From Sphingobium subterraneum (GTDB taxonomy: Bacteria > Pseudomonadota > Alphaproteobacteria > Sphingomonadales > Sphingomonadaceae), in contig NZ_JACIJP010000002.1 of assembly GCF_014199435.1 (NCBI RefSeq), forward strand, positions 186,001 through 250,000: DNA of 64,000 nucleotides, written 5' to 3'. Under the pieces are notes generated by a model that worked only from the letters and a program-made list of their open reading frames with translations, was not told the DNA's origin and ran no database searches. Each line of letters starts with the position of its first letter. Within the stretch, counting starts at the first letter, position 1. Positions 22,134 through 33,620 of this stretch are shown one piece after another. Position numbers and translations under genes: made by a program.

Positions 22134-22469
22134 TCACACGCCCTGCATATTACGGCTTTCCGGCGGGATTTGCACGGTCAGGGTGTCCATATCCGCGGGT
22201 ATGTCAATCTGACAGGAGAGGCGGCTGGTGCGCGTCGCGGCAGCGGCGAGATCGAGCATGTCTTCCTCGTCTTCGCTCGCGCGCGGTAATCGGGCAAAAT
22301 CCTCGGCCGCTACGATGACGTGGCAGGTCGAACAGGCCATCTGTCCCTCGCACGTCCCTTCCAGCGGCTGGCCGCAGCCCTGCGCAATGTCGAGAAGATT
22401 GTCCCCCGCGCCCGCCCGCACCTCGCGAATCTGCTTCCCATCGGCGCTGATGAAACGGACCAGGGTCAT
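22134..22469 (-). CDS. 2Fe-2S ferredoxin (adrenodoxin type)
   Basis: Small cytosolic electron carrier. 111 residues with the adrenodoxin/ISC-ferredoxin cluster pattern C-x5-C-x2-C (CEGQMACSTC, about 40-49) and a fourth Cys in RLSCQI (about 84-88), the usual spacing. Last of three same-strand genes after two cysteine desulfurases, so it may feed electrons into Fe-S cluster assembly, or serve a P450; the operon favours the former. It begins 28 nt after the second desulfurase. Confidence 0.93.
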   Translation of the reverse strand: MTLVRFISADGKQIREVRAGAGDNLLDIAQGCGQPLEGTCEGQMACSTCHVIVAAEDFARLPRASEDEEDMLDLAAAATRTSRLSCQIDIPADMDTLTVQIPPESRNMQGV

Positions 22470-22496: not shown

Positions 22497-23606
22497 TCAC
22501 TGCTGTGACGCGGCGTGATTGATCGCCTCGGCCGCCTTCTCCAGTTCCTCGCACGTTGTATATCGACCGAATCCCAGCCGGACCGCGCTTTGTGCCTCTT
22601 TCTTCGACAATCCAATCGCGTGCAAGACATGACTGGGTCGGCCGGACCCGCTGGCGCATGCAGACCCCAGAGAAAAGGCGACGTTGCGACATTCTGACAA
22701 CAGTCGGGCAGCATCGATCCCGTCGCGACGGATGTTGAGATTGCCGCAATAGCGCGCCTCGACGCTCCCGTTGATTGTCCAGTCCGCGAACAGATCCCGC
22801 GCGCGGTCCCATAAGGCTTGGACATGCCCGGCATCATCCGCCGCCCGCTCCGCCATCAGTGCGGCCGCCACTCCGAAACCCACACACAGCGCGGGCGATA
22901 GCGTGCCGGGTCGCAAGCCCGCCTCCTGCCCCCCGCCATGCAGCAGCGGCGGCAAATCCAGCCCATCGCGCAGCCACAGTCCGCCGATGCCTTTGGGACC
23001 ATGAACCTTGTGGGCGCTCACCGCGATCAGGTCCGCGTTGCGGGGCAGCGGGACCCGTCCAAAGGCCTGCACCGCGTCGCACAGAAACAGCGCGCCCGCC
23101 GCCTGCGCCTGCGCCGCCAGCGCCTCGACCGGCTGGATCACGCCGATTTCGTTGTTGACCAGCATGACGGCGACGAGCGCCGTCCGGTCGTCCATCGCTG
23201 CTGCCGCCTCGGGCAGGTCCAGCAGTCCGTTAGCCCCCACCGGCAGCAGGATCGGTTCAAATCCCTCGCTCTCCAGCGCCAGTACCGTGTCACGCACAGC
23301 GGCATGTTCGGTCGCGACCGTCAGCACGCGGATCCGGCGCGGGTCTGCCCGGCGCATCCTTCGCGCCGCGCCGACGATGGCGATGTTGAGCGCCTCGGTC
23401 GCGCCCGATGTGAAGATCAGGCGGCCCGGCGGCAGATCGAGCGCCGCCATGACCCGCTCTCGCGCTACCTCCACCGCCGCCGCCGCCGCGCGCCCCGGCT
23501 TATGGGCACTGTGCGGGTTTGCGAAATGGTCGCGCAGCCACGGCACCATCGCCTCGAACACCTGCGGAGCGAGCGGGGTCGTCGCCTGATAGTCGAGGTA
23601 GATCAC
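22497..23606 (-). CDS. cysteine desulfurase, second of a tandem pair
   Basis: PLP enzyme that takes sulfur from cysteine for Fe-S clusters or thiolation. 369 residues from GTG 23606 (VIYLDYQATTPLAP); this start overlaps the upstream desulfurase stop as GTGA and gives the canonical NifS/IscS N-terminus, while an ATG at 23633 would add nine unconserved residues. The PLP lysine is in SAHKVHGPKG (about 185), and the catalytic Cys is in SACASGSGRPSHVL (about 305), the class I loop. Which of the pair is IscS-like cannot be decided from sequence alone. Confidence 0.9.
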   Translation of the reverse strand: MIYLDYQATTPLAPQVFEAMVPWLRDHFANPHSAHKPGRAAAAAVEVARERVMAALDLPPGRLIFTSGATEALNIAIVGAARRMRRADPRRIRVLTVATEHAAVRDTVLALESEGFEPILLPVGANGLLDLPEAAAAMDDRTALVAVMLVNNEIGVIQPVEALAAQAQAAGALFLCDAVQAFGRVPLPRNADLIAVSAHKVHGPKGIGGLWLRDGLDLPPLLHGGGQEAGLRPGTLSPALCVGFGVAAALMAERAADDAGHVQALWDRARDLFADWTINGSVEARYCGNLNIRRDGIDAARLLSECRNVAFSLGSACASGSGRPSHVLHAIGLSKKEAQSAVRLGFGRYTTCEELEKAAEAINHAASQQ

Positions 23607-24655
23607 GCCGCGCCGCCCGCGAGGCTTTGCCATAGGTGAAGAAAGCGGTCGATGTCGCCCGCACTCGTCTGCGGACCGAAGCTGACGCGGATCACCTCGT
23701 CCGCATCCTCCGCGCGCCAGCCGATGGCGGAGAGCACCGGGCTGGTCTTGAGCGTGCCGGAGGAACAGGCCGCCCCCGCCGATACCGAGACGCCCGCCAT
23801 GTCGAAGCGGATCAGCTGCACGCGCGCCGACACACCGGGCATGCGATAGCTGGCGATAGTCGCAATCCGCTCCGCCGCGTCGGCAACGACAATGCCGCCC
23901 GCCTCACGGATGCCGCTGTCGAGCAGGGTGCGCAGGCCCGCCACGCCCGCCATCCAGTCGCGGTTTTCTTCAAGCGCCGCAGCCATGCCGAGCACGCCCG
24001 GCACATTTTCCGTTCCCCCGCGATAGCCCCGTTCCTGCCCACCGACCGGGGAAAGCACGGCAAGATCCTTCACCAGCAGCGCACCCACACCCGGCGGTCC
24101 GCCGAATTTATGAGCGCTCAGCGCGATCATGTCCGCGTCCATCGGCAGCGCGATCTTGCCCGCACTCTGCGCGCAGTCGACGAACAGCGTACCGCCGGTG
24201 CCATGAATCTCCGCCGCCAGCGTGGCGACCGGCTGGATGACCCCCGTCTCGTTGTTCACATGCTGGATCGCGTGGAGCGCCCCCGCGACGGTTTCCCGCA
24301 CGACGCCGTCGCCATCGACAGCGAGGCGCGTCGCGTCCGCCGTCATCCGCAGCACCGCGTCGTGCTCCACCGGCGACGTCACCACCCGCTCCGCGCGGGC
24401 GCGGCCCAGCCCCAGCGCGATCGCCTCGCTTGCACCAGACGTGAAGATGACCGCGCCGTCCCAGTCCAGCGCCCGGCATATCCGCGCCCGCGCATCTTCC
24501 AGCATCGCGCGCGCTGCCCGCCCGTCGGCATGCGGCGAAGATGGATTGGCCCAATGCTGAAATCCCTCTGCAACCGCCAGACGCGCTCCCTCGCACACGG
24601 GCGTGGTCGCCGCATGATCGAGATATAATCGTGGCAGGGGAACGGCTTCGGTCAC
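23603..24655 (-). CDS. cysteine desulfurase, first of a tandem pair
   Basis: 350-residue class V aminotransferase-fold desulfurase. Visible: YLDHAATTP start, FTSGASEA phosphate loop (about 71-78), HVNNETG, the PLP lysine at about K183 in SAHKFGGPPG, and the active Cys in GAACSSGT (about 298). All catalytic elements are present. It is followed by a second desulfurase with a different Cys loop and then a ferredoxin; the head-to-tail pair probably arose by duplication and divergence, and both may be active. Divergent from the alpha/beta hydrolase. Confidence 0.92.
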   Translation of the reverse strand: MTEAVPLPRLYLDHAATTPVCEGARLAVAEGFQHWANPSSPHADGRAARAMLEDARARICRALDWDGAVIFTSGASEAIALGLGRARAERVVTSPVEHDAVLRMTADATRLAVDGDGVVRETVAGALHAIQHVNNETGVIQPVATLAAEIHGTGGTLFVDCAQSAGKIALPMDADMIALSAHKFGGPPGVGALLVKDLAVLSPVGGQERGYRGGTENVPGVLGMAAALEENRDWMAGVAGLRTLLDSGIREAGGIVVADAAERIATIASYRMPGVSARVQLIRFDMAGVSVSAGAACSSGTLKTSPVLSAIGWRAEDADEVIRVSFGPQTSAGDIDRFLHLWQSLAGGAA

Positions 24656-25518: not shown

Positions 25519-27162
25519 TCAATCGCCGCGCAATTCCTTTTTCGACAGCTTGCCGATCAGGGTCTTGGGCAGTTCGTCGCGAAATTCAATGTCGCGCGGC
25601 ATTTCGATCTTGCTGATACGCGACGTGAGGAACGCGCGCAGATCATCGGCGGTCGCAGCGGAGCCGGGTCGCTTCCGGACGAACGCCTTGGGCGCCTCCC
25701 CGCGATAGGGGTCGGGCACGCCGATCACGGTCACCTCCAGCACGTCCTCATGCTCATAGAGCGCGTCCTCGATGACGCGCGGATAGACATTATATCCACC
25801 GCACAGGATCAGGTCCTTGATCCGGTCGACCAGAAAGAGGAAGCCGTCCGCGTCAAACCTGCCGACATCTCCGGTGCGCAGGAACCCGTCGCGAAGAACC
25901 TCGGCGCTCTCCTCCGGCCGGTTCCAGTACCCCCTCATCACTTGGGGACCCGACACCCACACCTCACCCGCCGCCCCGGCGGGAACCGTTCGTGACAAAT
26001 CGTCGAGGTCACGCAGCTCGATGGTGGTGCGGGGGAAGGGTCTGCCGACGCTGCCTACACGACCCTTCTCCGTCAGCGAATTGGACGCCACGATCGGCGA
26101 CGCCTCCGACAGACCATAGCCCTCACTGAGGACAATGCCCGTATGTCTCTCGAATTGCGCGAGCATCTCCGGCGGCAGGGGCGCACCCCCACTGATGCAA
26201 CAGCGTAGCCGCTTGAAGCCGGGCGTATGGGGACCGATATGCTCGTTAAGCTTGCCGATCAGGGTCGGCACGGCGAACAATCGATGCGGCCGGGTACGCG
26301 CCATCGTTTTGAGGAAGCTGTCCAGTTCGAATCGGGGGAGCAGGACGATCTCCGCACCGGTCAGGATCGAATAATTGAGCACCGTGGTCAGCGCGAAGAC
26401 ATGGAACATCGGCAGCACGCCGATCACCCGTTCCGGCGTGGATGGCAGGCCCCTGTCATGGTCTCGCATCTGCAGCGCGTTGGCGATCAGGCTCGCGTGC
26501 GTCAGCATCGCACCCTTGGGCACGCCGGTCGTCCCGCCGGTATATTGCAGGACCGCGACATCACCCGGATCTCTGGCACGATCGGCGGGCCGCCCGGTCG
26601 CACGCTCCAGCATCCGGTAGGGAAGATGAAATTCGTCGTTCGGAACACGCAGGATGCTCCGGCGAGCCAGAAACCGGTAGGCGATGCCCTTGATGGGCGG
26701 CAGCGCGGCGGCAATCGGGCAGACGATGATGCGCCGCACACCTGCCGCACCCGCGGCGGCGCTGGCCTTGGCATGGATATCGCGATCGTCGGGGACGGCC
26801 AGCAGGCGCGCACCGGAGTCGGCCAGCACATGGCCCATTTCCCGCTCCGTGTAGAGCGGGTTCATCGCCACCACGATCCCGCCAGCGCGCAGCACGGCAA
26901 AATACAGGATCACGAAATAGGACGTGTTAGGTAGACAGAGGCACATGCGATCGCCCGGCGCGAGGCCGAGATCCTGCAGCGCGCGCGCCACCCGTTCCAC
27001 CCTGGCCGCCAGACCAGCATAGGACATCGACCGGCCCATGAAATCAAGCGCAACGGACTCCGGGCTGCGACGGGCGGACTGCGCGAGAAGATCGGGCAGC
27101 AGGCGCGGCTCGCCCGGTTCCCGGGGATCGGAAACAGGGGCCGAGCGCTCAGACCTCGACAT
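25519..27162 (-). CDS. AMP-forming acyl-CoA synthetase
   Basis: 547-residue ANL-superfamily ligase that adenylates a carboxylate and transfers it to CoA. Visible: phosphate loop YTGGTTGVPKGA (about 214-225), the A5-type GYGLSEASP, the hinge in DRIKDLILCGGYNVYP, and the catalytic C-terminal lysine in PKTLIGKLSKKEL. The sequence resembles long-chain fatty-acid ligases (FadD-like), but the operon (carrier, AtuA-like, DUF4387) suggests a specialised acid. It overlaps the DUF4387 gene by 14 nt and is the last gene of the operon. Confidence 0.9.
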   Translation of the reverse strand: MSRSERSAPVSDPREPGEPRLLPDLLAQSARRSPESVALDFMGRSMSYAGLAARVERVARALQDLGLAPGDRMCLCLPNTSYFVILYFAVLRAGGIVVAMNPLYTEREMGHVLADSGARLLAVPDDRDIHAKASAAAGAAGVRRIIVCPIAAALPPIKGIAYRFLARRSILRVPNDEFHLPYRMLERATGRPADRARDPGDVAVLQYTGGTTGVPKGAMLTHASLIANALQMRDHDRGLPSTPERVIGVLPMFHVFALTTVLNYSILTGAEIVLLPRFELDSFLKTMARTRPHRLFAVPTLIGKLNEHIGPHTPGFKRLRCCISGGAPLPPEMLAQFERHTGIVLSEGYGLSEASPIVASNSLTEKGRVGSVGRPFPRTTIELRDLDDLSRTVPAGAAGEVWVSGPQVMRGYWNRPEESAEVLRDGFLRTGDVGRFDADGFLFLVDRIKDLILCGGYNVYPRVIEDALYEHEDVLEVTVIGVPDPYRGEAPKAFVRKRPGSAATADDLRAFLTSRISKIEMPRDIEFRDELPKTLIGKLSKKELRGD

Positions 27163-27454
27163 GGCACAGCCTTACATATTGCTGGCCGCCGTGCATGTCG
27201 CGCTCGTCCGGCCCACCTTGTGCAACCGCGCGGGGATAAGAGAATTTGACGACCGCCAGTTCGGGCACCACGAATTTGCGGACGCTCTCCGACGGCACGC
27301 CGTACAGGCGCGCAATGGCCTCGCTTGCCAGCGCAGGCGTGTGGGCATAACGCGCAAAGCGCTCCGCATCGGCGAAGAACAGGTCGATCGTGATCCAGAA
27401 CGGTCCTGCATTTTTCGACCGGATGTGGCGGCAGACGTCGCTGAGTTTAGCCAT
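27149..27454 (-). CDS. DUF4387 family protein
   Basis: 101 residues with the family's IRSKNAGPFWITIDLFF N-terminal block and a GGQQYVRL ending; cytosolic, no membrane segment. DUF4387 genes regularly follow AtuA/DUF1446 genes, and an equivalent small domain is fused to the C-terminus of some AtuA proteins (recollection), so the two probably form one enzyme. Here the start overlaps the AtuA-like stop by 8 nt and the end overlaps the ligase start by 14 nt, which implies coupled translation. Chemistry is unknown. Confidence 0.85.
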   Translation of the reverse strand: MAKLSDVCRHIRSKNAGPFWITIDLFFADAERFARYAHTPALASEAIARLYGVPSESVRKFVVPELAVVKFSYPRAVAQGGPDERDMHGGQQYVRLCHVEV

Positions 27455-28829
27455 GGGCCGCCTCCGGCATGCGCAATTCCATCCGCACCCGCTCCATGGG
27501 GTCGTCTACGCGAACCCGGTGATTGAGCCGGAAGGAATAGACCTCGCCCCGTTCGATTTCGGCGGGCGAGAAGGGAAACGCATAGCTTGGCAGCTCCATG
27601 TCGAGATCAAGCGGCATGTGAAAGAAATAGGGATTGCAGTTCTTGGCGATCTGTGTGGCAATCTCCTGCGTCTGCGCCGTTGCGACGAAGAGCAGGCCGA
27701 TTTCCTGCGGCGGCGTCGCCGAAAGCGGCACGCCCGAAACCCCGCTCCAGCCATAAGGGCGCAGCGAGATCGTGAACGCCCCCGCCCGCTCGCCCATCGT
27801 CGCGTGGACCCGCTGTTCCAGGAGCATCTGCATCTGTCCGAGAAACCGTGGGAGCTCTGCCAGCACCTTCGGGTCCTGAATGCCGATGAGCATCAATGTC
27901 TGGAACCCGTCGCCCGACGCGCCCTCCAGCTTCATCGTATAGGGAGCGGGTTCGAAGAGCGATCCGGACACCTGAACCCGGCGATCGTCAAGCGCCCGAT
28001 AGCGCGCGCTGCGCACGTCCAGAACGCCGCCCGGCTCATGCAGGAGATAGGGATCGCTGTTCTCATAGAGCATATGCGCCGATACCGACTCGACCGAACA
28101 CCGGTTGGGGGACGCAAGCGGCTCCACGATGAAGCCATTGTCCCCCACCCGGATCATCACTCCGCCCTCGCGCGGGTTCACCGTGCACTGGCCGCCGCAT
28201 TCGGAAATCTTGCCCGCGTGCCACGCCGCACCGGCATCACGTCCCCGCATCAAAGGTACAGCGGCGATCACAGCGGTATCGGTTGTTCGCCCGCCCAGCA
28301 CGATATCGGCCCCCGCCTCCAGCGCAGCAATATAGGGCTCCGGCCCCATCAGTGCGACGATGTGACGGCAGTCGCGGAACACCGCCTTGTCGACCCCGGA
28401 CATGGGGGCCAGGGGCTCGATCCGGTTCTCGTCCGCCGCGCGCTCCAGCGAGTCCGGGGTCTGCTCGGAATAGAGAAGCGCGATCCGCGGAGACAATTTC
28501 TCTTCGCGCGCGATTTCCAGCGCGATTGCGTGGGTCCAGTCGAGCGCCCCGTCGCAGCCCGATGTTCCGCAGGAGCCGATCAGCAGCGGAATGCCTGCGG
28601 CGGCCTGCGCGCGCATCAGAATTGCAAGATCCGCCTTCACCGAATCCCGCCCATATTTGGAAACACCCGTGGCGAGATAGGCGGGTCCGCTGTCCGTCGA
28701 TCCTGCGTCGCAGGCTATGGCATGTGCGCCCGCGGCAATTCCCGCCGCGACATCGCTTTCCCGGATGCCGCCGCCAAGCGCGCCCACCGGCACCAGAACG
28801 TTCGTCGTGTCTTCACTATGCTCAGGCAT
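27447..28829 (-). CDS. AtuA-like (DUF1446) protein
   Basis: 460-residue protein of the acyclic-terpene-utilisation AtuA family, named from the citronellol/geraniol pathway of Pseudomonas; the reaction is not established. Characteristic blocks: GALGGGIRESDV near the N-terminus, CDAGSTDSGP (about 40-49), GSCGTSGCDGALDWTH (about 84-99), ADIVLGGRTTDTA and ECGGQCTVNPREGG. These Gly/Cys/Asp-rich loops look like a substrate or cofactor site. It is paired with DUF4387 and sits behind a CitMHS carrier, which favours a polar carboxylic acid substrate over a terpene. Confidence 0.85.
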   Translation of the reverse strand: MPEHSEDTTNVLVPVGALGGGIRESDVAAGIAAGAHAIACDAGSTDSGPAYLATGVSKYGRDSVKADLAILMRAQAAAGIPLLIGSCGTSGCDGALDWTHAIALEIAREEKLSPRIALLYSEQTPDSLERAADENRIEPLAPMSGVDKAVFRDCRHIVALMGPEPYIAALEAGADIVLGGRTTDTAVIAAVPLMRGRDAGAAWHAGKISECGGQCTVNPREGGVMIRVGDNGFIVEPLASPNRCSVESVSAHMLYENSDPYLLHEPGGVLDVRSARYRALDDRRVQVSGSLFEPAPYTMKLEGASGDGFQTLMLIGIQDPKVLAELPRFLGQMQMLLEQRVHATMGERAGAFTISLRPYGWSGVSGVPLSATPPQEIGLLFVATAQTQEIATQIAKNCNPYFFHMPLDLDMELPSYAFPFSPAEIERGEVYSFRLNHRVRVDDPMERVRMELRMPEAAHG

Positions 28830-28836
28830 GGTCTTC

Positions 28837-30120
28837 CTAGTATATGGCGCCAGAGAGGATCGCCGCGGCGATCATGACGAGGGTCAGCAATGCGGCCCAT
28901 TTCAGGCCGAAACGCTGGAGCTCGCCCACGTCGCGATCCAGGAGACCCGCCACGAGATACACGGCGGGAACGAGCGGGCTCATGGCATGAATGGGCGCGC
29001 CCAGCAGGGATGCGCGGGCGATGTCCACCACGGGCACGCCATGTTCCGCGGCGGTGCGTGCGATGATCGGCACCACCCCAAAAAAATAGGCATCGGTCGA
29101 CAGGATGAAGCTGAGCGGTGCAGCGGCCAACGCCGTCAGCGGCCCCATCCACGCGCCCGCCCCCTCCGGTATGGCCCGGAGCGGAAGCTGAGCCATCGCG
29201 TCAAGCATTCCGGTGCCGGAGAGGATACCGGTAAAAATGCCTGCCGCCAGAATCAGCAGGACGATCGGCAACGCATTTTCGGCGTGGCTGGCAAGGCGCG
29301 CCCGTTGATCGGTGAGACGCGGATAGTTGATCATCACAGCGAGCGCGAGCGCGATCATGAACAGCAGCGGCAAGGGCATCGCGTGCACGACTGCTCCCCC
29401 CACCACCGCAAGGGTGAGCGCGAGATTGACAGGCAGCATCCGGGGTCGCTTCAGGCTGTCATCCTGATCGGGACCACTCGGTGAACCCTGAGGCTCCAGC
29501 GCGACCACGCCAAGCCGACGACGTTCTTGGCTGCCCAGATACCAGGCAAAGGCCATGGTGGTCGCCAGCCCGGCCGCTATGGTGGGCAGGAGCGGGAGAA
29601 AAATGTCGGACGGGTCGACGCGCAGCGCGGCGGCAACCCGTCCGACCGGCCCGCCCCACGGAAACAGATTGAGGATGCTGTTCGCGCTGCCCAGCAGCAC
29701 CGCGATGATAAGGGGGTTCATGCCCAGCCGCCGGTAGACGGGAAGGAAAGCGGTGATCGTCACCAGGGCGGTCGTGGTCCCGTCGCCATCCAGCGAAACG
29801 ATGGTCGCAACCACCGCCGTGCCCATAGCCACTTTCAGGGGGTCGCCGCCCGCAAAGCGCATGACCCGTGTAACCAGCGGATCGAAAAGGCCCGCATCGA
29901 TCATGATGCCGAAATACAGGATGGCGAAAAGCAGGAGGATGGCGGTCGGCGCAAGTTGCGTCACACCCTCGAGCGCCATCGGGCCAAGATCCGCGCCATG
30001 CCCGGCCAGCAGCCCGAAGAGGATCGGCAGGAGGATCAGCGCCACCAAAGCGGACAGCCGCCGCGTCATGATAAGCACCATGAACGCGACGACCATCGTG
30101 TAACCAAGCACCGTCAGCAT
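28837..30120 (-). CDS. CitMHS-family metal-citrate:proton symporter
   Basis: 427-residue inner-membrane carrier with about eleven hydrophobic helices. Family-type elements: a VSLDGDGTTT loop near residue 108 and an NLFPWGGP re-entrant loop near 155, both typical of CitMHS transporters, which import citrate or a related acid with a divalent metal. Actual substrate is not fixed by sequence. Between the TonB receptor (34 nt) and the AtuA-like gene (7 nt) in one operon, so a plausible route is outer-membrane receptor, then this carrier, then cytosolic processing. Confidence 0.9.
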   Translation of the reverse strand: MLTVLGYTMVVAFMVLIMTRRLSALVALILLPILFGLLAGHGADLGPMALEGVTQLAPTAILLLFAILYFGIMIDAGLFDPLVTRVMRFAGGDPLKVAMGTAVVATIVSLDGDGTTTALVTITAFLPVYRRLGMNPLIIAVLLGSANSILNLFPWGGPVGRVAAALRVDPSDIFLPLLPTIAAGLATTMAFAWYLGSQERRRLGVVALEPQGSPSGPDQDDSLKRPRMLPVNLALTLAVVGGAVVHAMPLPLLFMIALALAVMINYPRLTDQRARLASHAENALPIVLLILAAGIFTGILSGTGMLDAMAQLPLRAIPEGAGAWMGPLTALAAAPLSFILSTDAYFFGVVPIIARTAAEHGVPVVDIARASLLGAPIHAMSPLVPAVYLVAGLLDRDVGELQRFGLKWAALLTLVMIAAAILSGAIY

Positions 30121-30154
30121 CGAAGCGGCATCCCTCGCTGCGTCTTGCTGCCCA

Positions 30155-32320
30155 TCAATAGCGCCATGTCAGCGTCGCGCCATAGGTGCGCGGCGGACCA
30201 TAGGTGGCGAAATGCCCGCCCAGCAGCAGGAACTGGTGCGTAATATAGGTTTTGTCTCCTAGATTCTGCCCCCAGATCGAGAGGCTGAGCCCCTTGTCTG
30301 CATGGTCAATCACGATACGGGCATCCACCAGCGTCTTGGACGGCCGTATCGTCAGCGGATTGTTGTTGAAGTCGTCGTAGATCTTGCTTTCATATTGATA
30401 GTCCAACGTGGTCGTCACGGACAGGGCATCGCTGACATCGAACCGGAAGGACGGCGAGAGCACCAGCTTGTCGTGCGGCGAACGGGTCAACCGGTTGCCG
30501 GAATAATTCTGGCCGTTGTCGATAAGCTCGCGAAATTTGCCGTCGGTGAGGGCATAGCTGCCCGAAAGCGTAAAGCCACCAAATGGCCCAGCTGTCGCCT
30601 CGACCTCCAGTCCCTTGATGCGCGCGGACCCGGCATTGACCGTGAAGGTATCGAGACCGATCGTCCGGCGGACCTGAAGATCGGAATAGTCGATGCGGTA
30701 CACACTGGTGTTGAGCAGCAGCTTCCGGTCGAACAGGCGGGTCTTGGCGCCAATCTCGAAGTTGGTGGCCGCTTCGGGCGAAAAGGGCGTTCGCGCCGAT
30801 GTCGCACTGGCGGGCGTATCCTGAAACCCACCGCTCTTGAAGCCGCTCGACACCAGCGCGTAGACCATAATGTCCTTCGCTGGCCGATATTGCACGCCCG
30901 CGCGGTACGTCAGCTTGTCCCAGCCCTTGTCGGCTTCGATCGTGTAGCGTGCACCTGCCCGCAGCAACGCGGTGGAGTTCGCGTTGGTGAGGTCATAGTC
31001 CTTGTGGTCATAGGAATAGCGCACACCGCCGAAGACGGACACCGCATCGATCAGTGGCACCGTAACATCCGCAAAAACGGCATAGCTGTCGATCTTCGCG
31101 CGCTGGTCGAACTGGTCCCGCGCCAGGAACGTGCCGCTGGGCGCGGGCGGCGCATCGACGATCAGCGAGTCGGTACGGCGGGTGTTCTGGTGGTAATAAT
31201 ATGCACCGAGCACCCACTTCACCGCGCTGGAGGACGGAGCCGCAACCCGCAGTTCCTGGCTCCAAAAGCGGGATGTTTCAAAATTCCCGCCGCGCGCGTT
31301 GATCCGGTTGGTGGTGGGATTGCCGCCGTCGGCATCCTCGAATGCGGCATAATCGAGCCAGCGATAGGACGTGATCGACGAAATCGTGAACGGATCGAGT
31401 TCCCAGTCGATGCTGCCGCGCACACCATAGCTTTCGCGGTTCTGATAGCCGTTGGTATCCTGCCGGACATGGTCGGGAACGGTATCGATGGCGTTGGCCC
31501 ACACCGGCGCGCGCGAACTGCTCGGGTCCACACCGACCGTATGCCGGTTGCTGCCCGCCATATGGTCCCGGCGATAATCGCCCGCCACGAGAACGGAGAG
31601 ACGCTCGGTCGGCTCGACCAGCGCCTGCGCCCGGACGAACCGCGCATCCTCGTCGTCCACGCGGCCGCCGATCGCGATGTTGCGCGCAAAACCATCCCGG
31701 TTGCGCAATCCGCCCGTCACCCGCAGCGCCGCCGTGCCGGACAAGGGCACATTCACGAACGCGGCGACATCCTTCCGGTCGTAATTGCCGAGCGTCGTTT
31801 GGACGGATGCGCCGAAGTCACCCAGCGTCGGCCGCTGGTTGACGATGTGAATGAGGCCGCCGACGACATTCTTGCCCCACAGCGTCCCCTGCGGCCCCTT
31901 CAGTACCTCGATCCGCGCCACATCGAAGGCATCGAACGCAATGGCGCCCGGTCGTCCATAATAGACTTCGTCGACATAGACCGCGGTCGAGGGATCGCCC
32001 GCCGCGCCCCGGTCCGACGATCCAATGCCACGAATGGCCGGTCGGGGCTGGGTAACGGGGAAATTGTCAAACCCAAGACCGGGAACCCGGTTGGCGAGAT
32101 CGCCGACCCGGTCGACCCGCGCCTCTTCGACCTGCCCGCCGCTAAGCACGCTGAGCGTCATCGGCACGTCCTGCACATTCTGAGCGCGCTTCTGCGCCGT
32201 AACGACGATCTCCTGGATCGCGCCGGTGTCGGATCCGGCATCCGGAGCCGGTACCGTCGTCTGCGCATGCGCACTGGCTGCAAGCCAAAGGCACGGGGCC
32301 ACCATGTAATTCCTGTTCAT
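30155..32320 (-). CDS. TonB-dependent outer-membrane receptor
   Basis: 721-residue gated beta-barrel for energised uptake. A signal peptide ends near SAHAQ, followed by the TonB box/plug start EIVVTAQKRAQNVQDVP, the plug motif RGIGSSDRGAAGDPS, VYVDEVYYGRPG and VLKGPQGTLWGKN, and a barrel ending in the aromatic TWRY. ATG 32320 is chosen for GGGAGGG four nt upstream and for the signal peptide; 53 upstream in-frame residues run into the divergent promoter. First gene of the operon through to the ligase. The ligand may be a metal chelate or the acid imported by the CitMHS carrier. Confidence 0.95.
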   Translation of the reverse strand: MNRNYMVAPCLWLAASAHAQTTVPAPDAGSDTGAIQEIVVTAQKRAQNVQDVPMTLSVLSGGQVEEARVDRVGDLANRVPGLGFDNFPVTQPRPAIRGIGSSDRGAAGDPSTAVYVDEVYYGRPGAIAFDAFDVARIEVLKGPQGTLWGKNVVGGLIHIVNQRPTLGDFGASVQTTLGNYDRKDVAAFVNVPLSGTAALRVTGGLRNRDGFARNIAIGGRVDDEDARFVRAQALVEPTERLSVLVAGDYRRDHMAGSNRHTVGVDPSSSRAPVWANAIDTVPDHVRQDTNGYQNRESYGVRGSIDWELDPFTISSITSYRWLDYAAFEDADGGNPTTNRINARGGNFETSRFWSQELRVAAPSSSAVKWVLGAYYYHQNTRRTDSLIVDAPPAPSGTFLARDQFDQRAKIDSYAVFADVTVPLIDAVSVFGGVRYSYDHKDYDLTNANSTALLRAGARYTIEADKGWDKLTYRAGVQYRPAKDIMVYALVSSGFKSGGFQDTPASATSARTPFSPEAATNFEIGAKTRLFDRKLLLNTSVYRIDYSDLQVRRTIGLDTFTVNAGSARIKGLEVEATAGPFGGFTLSGSYALTDGKFRELIDNGQNYSGNRLTRSPHDKLVLSPSFRFDVSDALSVTTTLDYQYESKIYDDFNNNPLTIRPSKTLVDARIVIDHADKGLSLSIWGQNLGDKTYITHQFLLLGGHFATYGPPRTYGATLTWRY

Positions 32321-32377
32321 CACACCCTCCCTACCGCCTTGATGGCGATTTATGAGCGCAACTTGACAACGCGACTC

Positions 32378-32412
32378 CATACATGTCAATCTTGATTGAT
32401 TTTGTACATATG
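32378..32412. promoter_or_regulatory. candidate operator between divergent regulator and TonB receptor
   Basis: CATACATGTCAA and TTTTGTACATATG form an imperfect inverted repeat around TCTTGATTGA, immediately before the regulator start and within the divergent 103-nt promoter region. It is the AT-richest stretch of the neighbourhood and a plausible site for the adjacent HTH protein. Symmetry is imperfect. Confidence 0.4.
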
Positions 32413-32423
32413 AAGCACTGTTG

Positions 32424-33620
32424 ATGACTGACACGGATCTGTATATCGATGCCGCCGGGGCCGCGGACCTTCTCGGCATTTCTACCGCGACTCTCTACGC
32501 GTATGTGAGCCGCAAGGGCCTACGGTCTTTCCCCGTCCCCGGCACCAAAAAGCGCCGCTATTGGCGCGCGGATATAGAGGCGCTTCGCCACCCCTCCACC
32601 GCCACGGATCCGGTGACAACCCAGATGCTGGTCAAGTCGACAAGCCTGACCCTCCTGACGGAAACCGGGCTGTTTTATCGAGGCCAGAGCGCCATCGCTC
32701 TGGCCGACAGCGTGACACTCGAAGACGTCGCGATGCTCCTGTGGGGTGCATCAAGCGATAACTTCGGAGCTGTCCCGCCCGGCATTTTCAGCGACCTTCC
32801 CGATGTACACCATCCCGATGAACGGCTCCCGAAGATCGACCGCGCGCTTTCGATTCTGCCGATCATGGAATACGCCTATCCACAGGGCGCCGACCTGTCG
32901 CCGGAAGGCTTTTCGGCAACCAGCGCCCGGCTGGTCCGCTGGTTCGCATGCTTCATCAGCGACGCCGCGCCGCGCCATTCCGATCAGCCGGTGCACGTCA
33001 CGATCAGCGGGCTTTCGCCGGCTCCCGCTCTCTTCGGGGACCTGATCCGCCGCGCCCTGGTGCTCGCGGCGGATCATGAGCTGGACCCCACGACTTACGC
33101 CGTGCGCGCGGCAGCCAACACCGGCATCACCCCGTTCGGCGCAGCTCTCGTCGGCCTGGTGGCGGCCCGGGGCCAACGGCTGCGCCGCGCAAGGGCGCTC
33201 ACCACGGCGCGTTTCGTACAGCATCTCGTCAACAGCCGCGATCCGGCGGGGGAGATGGTGCGGCTGGTCCGGGCAGGCGAACCTATTCCCGGCTTCGTGT
33301 CGCGGGACGCGCCGGAGGGCCATGACCCGCGCGCCGCCGCGCTCACCGGTGCAATGCGTGAGCAACTGGCCGACGACAGCGATTTCCGCAGGCTCGATCA
33401 CGCCATTACGGCTGCGATGGACCTGCGGCAGGCCACACCGGAATTCATTCTGCCGGTTGCATTCCTGGGGCTGAAGCTGGGATTTGAAGAAGAGCCGCTG
33501 CTGTTCTCCACTCCTGGCCGTCTCGTCGGCTGGCTGGCGCACGCGCAGGAACAATATACGGCCAGCGAATTCATCCGGCCCCGCGCCGCCTATACCGGGA
33601 TATTGCCTGTCCGCGCGTAA
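32424..33620 (+). CDS. HTH plus citrate-synthase-fold protein, probable ligand-sensing regulator
   Basis: 398 residues in two parts: a MerR/excisionase-like HTH (about 6-54, with AADLLGISTATLYAYVSRKGLR) and a citrate-synthase-fold domain (about 75-398). In the enzyme part only the first catalytic His is retained (ADHELDPTTYA, H218). The HGGAN-type His loop is replaced by AARGQRLRRA (about 247-256), the IPGFGHPLYP loop by IPGFVSRDAPEG (about 288-299), and the catalytic Asp appears to be Glu (E340 in TPEF). It may therefore bind an acyl-CoA or tricarboxylate without catalysis and control the divergent uptake/CoA-ligase operon. HTH-citrate synthase fusions exist elsewhere; their role is poorly known. 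Confidence 0.85.
   Translation: MTDTDLYIDAAGAADLLGISTATLYAYVSRKGLRSFPVPGTKKRRYWRADIEALRHPSTATDPVTTQMLVKSTSLTLLTETGLFYRGQSAIALADSVTLEDVAMLLWGASSDNFGAVPPGIFSDLPDVHHPDERLPKIDRALSILPIMEYAYPQGADLSPEGFSATSARLVRWFACFISDAAPRHSDQPVHVTISGLSPAPALFGDLIRRALVLAADHELDPTTYAVRAAANTGITPFGAALVGLVAARGQRLRRARALTTARFVQHLVNSRDPAGEMVRLVRAGEPIPGFVSRDAPEGHDPRAAALTGAMREQLADDSDFRRLDHAITAAMDLRQATPEFILPVAFLGLKLGFEEEPLLFSTPGRLVGWLAHAQEQYTASEFIRPRAAYTGILPVRA

Follow-up and report, generated by a model that had tools for sequence, protein, structure and literature searches.

A candidate uptake-and-cleavage operon for citrate-headed hydroxy acids in Sphingobium subterraneum, with a citramalate lyase-type protein pair and a putative regulator of citrate-synthase fold

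Within a window of 64,000 nucleotides from Sphingobium subterraneum (assembly GCF_014199435.1, contig NZ_JACIJP010000002.1, positions 186,001 to 250,000), we analyzed a six-gene locus in which genes for a TonB receptor, a CitMHS carrier, an AtuA/DUF1446 protein, a DUF4387 protein and an AMP-forming acyl-coenzyme A (CoA) ligase follow one another on the minus strand, divergent from a gene for a protein that joins a helix-turn-helix (HTH) to a citrate-synthase fold. With moderate confidence, we interpret the locus as an inducible operon that takes up and cleaves a citrate-headed hydroxy acid, very likely an alkyl-bearing (alkylcitrate-like) one, after which the ligase activates the fatty acid set free. 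The lyase family itself is known and is represented in the PDB; what is new is that this CmlAB family is joined here to TonB/CitMHS uptake, to a FadD-like ligase and to an enzyme-derived regulator. The locus comprises the following features:

25519 to 27162, minus strand: AMP-forming acyl-CoA ligase, FadD-like; open frame and family match, grouping with the ligase of genome G057 (support 96/95)
27149 to 27454, minus strand: DUF4387 protein; matches the CmlB small subunit (PDB 9erq chain B)
27447 to 28829, minus strand: AtuA/DUF1446 protein; matches the CmlA large subunit (PDB 9erq chain A), and its model matches 9evf_A
28837 to 30120, minus strand: CitMHS-type carrier; above the cut-off of TIGR00784 (citrate:proton symporter)
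30155 to 32320, minus strand: TonB-dependent outer-membrane receptor; frame open up to 32479, likely start 32320
32321 to 32423, no strand: promoter region of 103 bases that separates the divergent receptor and regulator genes
32386 to 32395, plus strand: predicted operator TCAATCTTGA (TCAA-TC-TTGA), a site conserved ahead of genes of the HTH-citrate-synthase family
32424 to 33620, plus strand: HTH/citrate-synthase-fold regulator; frame opens at TTG 32421, with an ATG at 32424

The compact six-gene arrangement described in the first-pass annotation was confirmed, with every frame open where it had been placed and every family matched: AMP-binding for the ligase (3.9e-90), DUF4387 (7.9e-32), AtuA (1e-25), the barrel (2.5e-43) and plug (8.2e-16) of the TonB receptor, and Citrate_synt for the regulator (3.5e-22), whose HTH_17 match of 25.4 bits falls slightly below the cut-off of 27. 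The ligase and DUF4387 genes overlap by 14 nt and the DUF4387 and AtuA genes by 8 nt, and gaps of 7 nt (AtuA/CitMHS) and 34 nt (CitMHS/receptor) follow. The full open frames of the two divergent genes run from 30155 to 32479 (minus) and from 32421 to 33620 (plus). The receptor more likely starts at 32320 than at 32479, judging by an ATG that, as read by eye, comes after AGGGAGGG and ahead of a signal-peptide-like stretch; hence, the divergent genes would have a common promoter region of 103 bases (32321-32423).

Our comparisons of sequences and models indicate that AtuA and DUF4387 most likely form a C-C lyase for 2-hydroxy-2-substituted succinates, the class to which citramalate (2-hydroxy-2-methylsuccinate) belongs, rather than an acyl-CoA enzyme. 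In phmmer searches, the window AtuA matched CmlA (9erq chain A) over residues 8-446 of 460 (1.2e-76) and the window DUF4387 matched CmlB (9erq chain B) over residues 4-100 of 101 (8.6e-12). An AlphaFold model of AtuA, built from the window sequence and 37 related ones (predicted local distance difference test, pLDDT, 90.2), found a single PDB match at E <= 0.001, namely 9evf_A (E 2.2e-46, template-modelling (TM) scores 0.87/0.88, 34% identity), an entry entitled 'Citramalate lyase - ADP - pyruvate complex'. The chains of 9erq and 9evf are deposited as CmlA/CmlB, and we take their reaction from these molecule names and titles. AtuA and DUF4387 had initially been described as lacking an assigned chemistry, a statement that does not hold, since both entries name them as citramalate lyase. 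The window pair resembles CmlA/CmlB in that both subunits match near full length, share the fold and are encoded by adjacent genes, but differs in being joined to a TonB receptor, a CitMHS carrier, an HTH-citrate-synthase regulator and a FadD-like ligase. CmlA is identical at 57 of the 87 columns that are invariant across 38 AtuA sequences (the window and 37 of the 80 loci introduced below; L047, which contains a stop, and ten more loci were left out). The pair is also distinct from the citramalate lyase of clostridia, an enzyme of CitDEF (citrate-lyase) type whose products are given as pyruvate and acetate in PMC4682846. We considered citrate-lyase-type thioester chemistry as well and rejected it, as neither a CoA-transferase nor an acyl-carrier subunit is encoded among the six genes. 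AtuA ('terpene utilisation') and DUF4387, two domains that had long been annotated as unknown or under a wrong name, are tied here to a lyase whose structure is now in the PDB, and terpene genes are absent from their surroundings; the terpenoid acid suggested earlier as an alternative substrate found no support in the locus or in the annotated neighbours besides the AtuA family name. A literature search, with most subscription journals outside its reach, returned no DUF4387 paper, and the phrase 'alkylcitrate lyase' was absent from the matches listed.

The genes adjoining AtuA/DUF4387 in other genomes provide substrate leads. We surveyed the best 80 of at least 571 loci of the window's AtuA subfamily from named genomes, among which genera recur, so that they are not independent; 20 of the stretches were shorter than 17 kb, and neighbours were counted within the fetched stretches (tblastn, E <= 1e-15) and named from representatives of their families. 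For comparison we used 38 loci (L174-L211) chosen, not at random, for carrying the regulator family without AtuA. Since loci share ancestry, the counts represent repeated association and not probability. DUF4387 was present in 79 of the 80 AtuA loci. CitMHS occurred in 31/80 AtuA loci vs 0/38 comparison loci, the TonB receptor in 30/80 vs 1/38, the HTH-citrate synthase in 16/80 vs 36/38 (the latter having been selected for it), LeuC-type proteins in 10/80 vs 3/38 and any ANL ligase in 9/80 vs 2/38. The arrangement thus goes beyond chance, though its tie to a ligase is weak overall. TctC (16/80) and MmgE/PrpD proteins of the 2-methylcitrate dehydratase type (12/80) were each found in none of the 38 comparison loci, and the same holds for the GntR regulator (26/80), class II aldolase (19/80), TauD (7/80) and amidohydrolase (4/80). 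Because CitMHS, TctC and MmgE/PrpD adjoin AtuA and are absent from the comparison loci, the substrate is probably an acid of the citrate type, and the proposal that the locus as a whole serves uptake of such a carboxylic acid is supported. In other genera, too, the lyase is found together with CitMHS, the TonB receptor and the HTH/citrate-synthase protein, and in L051 (a Brevundimonas metagenome-assembled genome) and L082 (Caulobacter sp. 602-1) the regulator, receptor, carrier, AtuA and DUF4387 genes stand in the window order. Confinement of the neighbourhood to this one strain, which would have spoken against a common pathway, is therefore not seen for the receptor, carrier, lyase pair and regulator, although for the ligase it very nearly is.

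The neighbourhoods also bear on the order of the reactions. It had been supposed that the ligase makes the acyl-CoA of the imported acid and that AtuA/DUF4387 transform the thioester, and the overlap of the ligase and DUF4387 genes in the window agrees with this. However, the homologue is deposited as a citramalate lyase with ADP and pyruvate, CoA being absent from the title, and 71 of the 80 related loci are without an ANL ligase in the fetched stretch. The lyase is thus not in general accompanied by local synthesis of a CoA ester, a step after the lyase suits the ligase better, and we regard the original order as very improbable.

The main rival to an alkyl-bearing substrate is citramalate itself (or a mesaconate- or itaconate-derived source of it), which a CmlAB-type enzyme would cleave to pyruvate and acetate, the ligase activating acetate or serving otherwise. 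This is possible, though on the whole unlikely. It draws on the solved homologue, which is named citramalate lyase and has pyruvate bound, on loci annotated with the transporter and the lyase pair and without a ligase, on the MbcS/acetate-CoA-ligase-like ligases encoded directly upstream of AtuA in L039 and L042, and on a locus of a conjugative Klebsiella plasmid (L137, NZ_CP055107.1). There, AtuA-DUF4387, with an AtuA 36% identical to that of the window (a more distant pair), is followed by genes for an aldehyde dehydrogenase, a short-chain dehydrogenase/reductase, an alcohol dehydrogenase, a second aldehyde dehydrogenase and a fumarate hydratase, and the run is what one would expect if mesaconate were hydrated to citramalate and then cleaved, a context that also favours the lyase assignment of the pair under the main reading. 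Klebsiella accounts for 12 of the 40 plasmid records found among AtuA matches. According to PMC4682846, class I fumarases are able to convert mesaconate to (S)-citramalate by hydration, a DUF1446 gene lies downstream of methylaspartate ammonia-lyase in enterobacteria, and citramalate lyase activity went undetected in an E. coli strain under the conditions tried, which left the fate of citramalate open in 2015. An enzyme of the CmlAB type would fill this enterobacterial gap. Against citramalate as the substrate in the window, the ligase there sides with the FadD-like proteins encoded in beta-oxidation clusters and not with acetate ligases, and so small an acid would hardly require a dedicated TonB receptor.

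Depending on the lineage, the lyase could also act on another 2-hydroxy-2-substituted succinate, such as itatartarate, from which hydroxypyruvate and acetate would arise, or a 2-benzylmalate, for instance eucomic acid, from which 4-hydroxyphenylpyruvate and acetate would. D-2-hydroxyacid dehydrogenase (33/80), tartrate dehydrogenase (15/80) and glycerate kinase (12/80), each found in 0/38 comparison loci, would suit the disposal of hydroxypyruvate. In L052, L053, L057, L064, L074, L085, L086 and others, genes for D-2-hydroxyacid dehydrogenase, glycerate 2-kinase, tartrate dehydrogenase and class II aldolase look as though hydroxypyruvate or glycerate arises, which itatartarate would fit. In L018, a 4-hydroxyphenylpyruvate dioxygenase gene (L018:9883-10998) is convergent to a TonB-AtuA-DUF4387-CitMHS run, and cleavage of 2-(4-hydroxybenzyl)malate (eucomic acid) could supply this enzyme. 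Yet none of these genes is present among those of the window locus and the two flanking it; perhaps they are lineage-specific neighbours, and for the window we consider such substrates improbable. Directly upstream of CitMHS-AtuA-DUF4387, a PF04909 amidohydrolase is encoded in three loci (L044:5697-6662, L046:5592-6656 and L048:3-947), and this is perhaps a lactonase opening a lactone form of the substrate. Two genes in the survey are interrupted, namely the AtuA of L047 (8001-9362), with an in-frame stop, and the regulator of L066 (6713-7896), split across two frames, through sequencing error or decay.

The ligase provides the reason for preferring an alkyl-bearing acid. It matches 105 NCBIfam models and scores under the cut-off of each of the 25 listed; long-chain fatty acid ligases head this list, with PRK05605 the best (465 vs a cut-off of 766). 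Its scores are likewise too low for the FadD equivalog model PRK08974 (368.9 vs 884) and for the fifth-ranked model, that of the dicarboxylate-CoA ligase PimA (TIGR03205, 400 vs 705.6). Thus, it resembles FadD in belonging to the ANL family and in its preference for long-chain models but differs from it in scoring below the cut-offs and in forming a clade of its own with one other AtuA-linked ligase. Relatives at E <= 1e-140 occur in 46 of 296 genomes of the family, the source genome included. We inspected 11 loci encoding such relatives (52-58% identical to the window ligase) without an adjoining AtuA; with families again named from representatives, genes for thiolase and for 3-hydroxyacyl-CoA dehydrogenase/enoyl-CoA hydratase (3HCDH/ECH) were present in 10 of the 11, a MerR-type gene in 9 and a FadL-type porin in 7, whereas the eleventh stretch, L128, had none of these. 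By their gene content these loci are fatty-acid degradation clusters. The AtuA/DUF4387-linked ligases of the window and G057 form one clade (96/95) next to this FadD-like beta-oxidation-cluster set, while the G057 AtuA falls in a clade of 48 rows (99/98) that excludes the window AtuA. As one ligase type thus accompanies two AtuA lineages, a shared product is suggested. In further loci, AtuA shares its run with an ANL ligase of another type, namely MbcS/acetate-CoA-ligase-like proteins in L039 and L042, a PRK06018-type protein in L077 and a PRK07529-type protein after CitMHS in L079. Read simply, the carboxylic acid that the lyase sets free would differ by lineage, and the local ligase would be matched to it. 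For the window, the position of its clade beside FadD-like proteins hints at a fatty acid as the released product; the substrate would hence bear an alkyl chain on the CH2 carbon, as in an alkylcitrate cleaved to oxaloacetate and a fatty acid.

Uptake is suggested by the families of the carrier and the receptor. The carrier exceeds the curated cut-off of TIGR00784 (522.5 vs 259.7 bits), so that its match to citrate as a substrate comes from the family, and phmmer found no solved relative for it at E <= 0.01. CitMHS carriers take metal-citrate, and the closest solved relatives of the receptor are siderophore receptors, i.e., the pesticin receptor, CntO, FoxA and Fiu. Receptor and carrier might therefore import the metal complex of a hydroxy acid, with the lyase destroying the ligand and freeing the metal. 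Pfam and NCBIfam searches detected no metal-handling enzyme or metal-type regulator among the six genes, and we judge this explanation very improbable.

In the C-terminal part of the putative regulator, the model (pLDDT 81.3) has a citrate-synthase fold, its best matches being the 2-methylcitrate synthase PrpC structures 3o8j and 6s87 (TM about 0.6). Thus, the idea of a citrate-synthase-fold sensor was borne out as regards the fold of the model, the HTH and the loss of residues described here. We read the catalytic columns in a subset of 9 AtuA-linked and 12 other regulators aligned with the citrate synthase of the source genome, using the E. coli numbering and the citrate-synthase roles of His264, His305, Asp362, R314, R387 and R407. 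The counterparts of H305 and D362 are gone in 9/9 AtuA-linked regulators and present in 12/12 unlinked members, while that of His264 (the DHE histidine) is retained in 8/9 and 12/12, and those of R387 and R407 in all 21. The window regulator retains the H264 counterpart, has Leu in the H305 column and Ile, beside a gap, in the D362 column, and thereby lacks two of the three catalytic residues of citrate synthase. The GHR-motif arginine (R314) is gone from most regulators of both groups. Hence, the AtuA-linked branch looks like a non-catalytic sensor that keeps part of the carboxylate-binding groups. It shares with citrate and 2-methylcitrate synthases the fold, the DHE histidine and two ligand arginines, but is set apart by the N-terminal HTH, the loss of the H305/D362 counterparts and a conserved upstream DNA site; the window protein itself combines the N-terminal HTH, the fold and this site. 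The wider family occurs in 46 of 398 genomes of a phylum survey, and we fetched 40 of the 46 loci, leaving out the window's own and five others. The two best-scoring of the 40, L172 and L173, adjoin AtuA, DUF4387 and CitMHS, and at least 30 have a separate citrate-synthase-like gene beside the regulator. The HTH-citrate-synthase proteins of L174-L211 keep the catalytic counterparts (12/12 checked), often lie near such a second gene and have the DNA site near their start; perhaps each is a DNA-binding, possibly still catalytic citrate synthase controlling its partner gene. Our literature search, limited as stated above, returned no paper on HTH/citrate-synthase regulators, a single match being concerned with a TetR regulator.

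The site in question, the near-palindrome TCAATCTTGA, lies at -38 from the ATG of the window regulator. Of the 17 regulator loci linked to AtuA, 13 carry it (all except L071, L097, L098 and L100), as do 31 of the 40 survey loci, or 31/38 after setting aside the two AtuA-linked ones. In total it was found in 44 of 57 loci, of which 56 are different, since L172 of the survey is the same as L098, both being without the site. With one region taken per genus label, it is the most widely shared upstream 10-mer (26/33, or 25/31 after merging labels that possibly coincide; the labels mix codes and names, and a few more beyond the two merged pairs may coincide), and it is found in 10 of 14 survey families. 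After Markov shuffling, a set of 52 upstream regions contained 0.028 hits on average and 1 at most. In the 64 AtuA loci that lack the regulator, 956,248 bases in all, TCAATCTTGA did not occur; 2 of these loci matched the form relaxed at the seventh position (TCAATNTTGA). In AtuA-linked regions the site lies mostly at -24 to -41, and at -6 in L025. Moreover, three Nitrospirillum loci carry a second copy ahead of the D-2-hydroxyacid dehydrogenase gene, as expected of a target gene. The whole source genome contains 9 exact copies vs 0 of the reversed control, and the eight outside the window could be further targets of the regulator or due to chance. Taken from sequence conservation, this is good evidence that the regulator family binds DNA and controls itself and its divergent neighbour. 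An inverted repeat in the same promoter region, TTGACA-N15-TGTCAA, was set aside, since just 1 of 12 upstream regions contains it.

Returning to the uptake and cleavage of an alkylcitrate-like acid, we envisage that the TonB receptor in the outer membrane and the CitMHS carrier in the inner membrane would import the citrate-headed acid. AtuA/DUF4387 would then cleave it at the C-C bond adjoining its tertiary alcohol, a reaction in which ATP or ADP perhaps takes part and which would yield a carboxylic acid and a 2-oxo acid (of oxaloacetate or pyruvate type), and the FadD-like ligase would convert the freed fatty acid to its CoA ester for beta-oxidation. The putatively non-catalytic regulator may use its former active site to bind the substrate, the product or an acid akin to them, and may act at TCAATCTTGA on both directions of transcription. 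Tentatively, we further propose that a branch of the citrate synthases became one-component regulators reading TCAATCTTGA, that one line within this branch gave up catalysis and came to serve in citramalate-lyase-type operons as a sensor of citrate-headed acids, and that the window operon serves alkylcitrate catabolism, with a CmlAB-type lyase freeing a fatty acid for a dedicated ligase. Candidate natural substrates are the alkylcitric acids of fungi, which in A. niger are products of the akc cluster (PMC7338620); their citrate-derived head bears a saturated alkyl tail, and both a citrate synthase and a 2-methylcitrate dehydratase take part in their formation. The akc cluster is biosynthetic, whereas we propose breakdown for the window locus, and the tie to the source bacterium is one of analogy. 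If correct, the alkylcitrate assignment would represent a bacterial route for fungal citrate-headed compounds, and the regulator would clearly exemplify how an enzyme of central metabolism can become a transcription factor, here with a DNA site that is testable at once. The regulator family and its site are the part most surprising to a specialist.

Several observations weigh against this view. ANL ligases are not clearly enriched near AtuA, the window's ligase type is seen beside AtuA only in the window and G057, and the linked ligases of L039 and L042 are acetate or short-acid types. Moreover, the two loci that keep the window gene order, L051 and L082, are without a ligase, which is hence an add-on. 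An identity of just 34-36% between the window AtuA and CmlA, with 30 of the 87 AtuA-invariant columns differing in CmlA, means that specificity is not transferable, and the forks near the window in the AtuA tree are poorly resolved. The ADP in 9evf also leaves room for another reaction, for if the lyase product were an acyl phosphate, the role of the ligase would change. The siderophore receptors nearest to the TonB receptor point elsewhere. As to the regulator, the loss of R314 in most members of both groups means that its ligand pocket cannot simply be equated with that of citrate synthase, and TCAATCTTGA is missing from the Pseudomonas loci L097, L098, L100 and L173 and from L071 and lies at -222 to -232 in L044 and L046, rather than at about -24 to -41. 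Finally, the literature search described above, within the same reach, gave no paper on an AtuA/DUF4387 enzyme.

The six-gene locus is accessory in the source family, because AtuA at E <= 1e-100 was found in 1 of 100 relatives searched, namely the source genome (3.75 Mb), and because just 10 of the family's 298 genomes carry DUF4387. Scans for sigma-70 promoters (1 vs a shuffle mean of 1.9) and for terminators (6 vs a shuffle mean of 4.9, sd 2.1) gave values inside the shuffle range. Elsewhere in the window, two adjoining frames at 22497-24655 resemble, as judged by eye, class V aminotransferase/cysteine-desulfurase proteins, and a ferredoxin-like frame, likewise assigned by eye, comes after them at 22134-22469.

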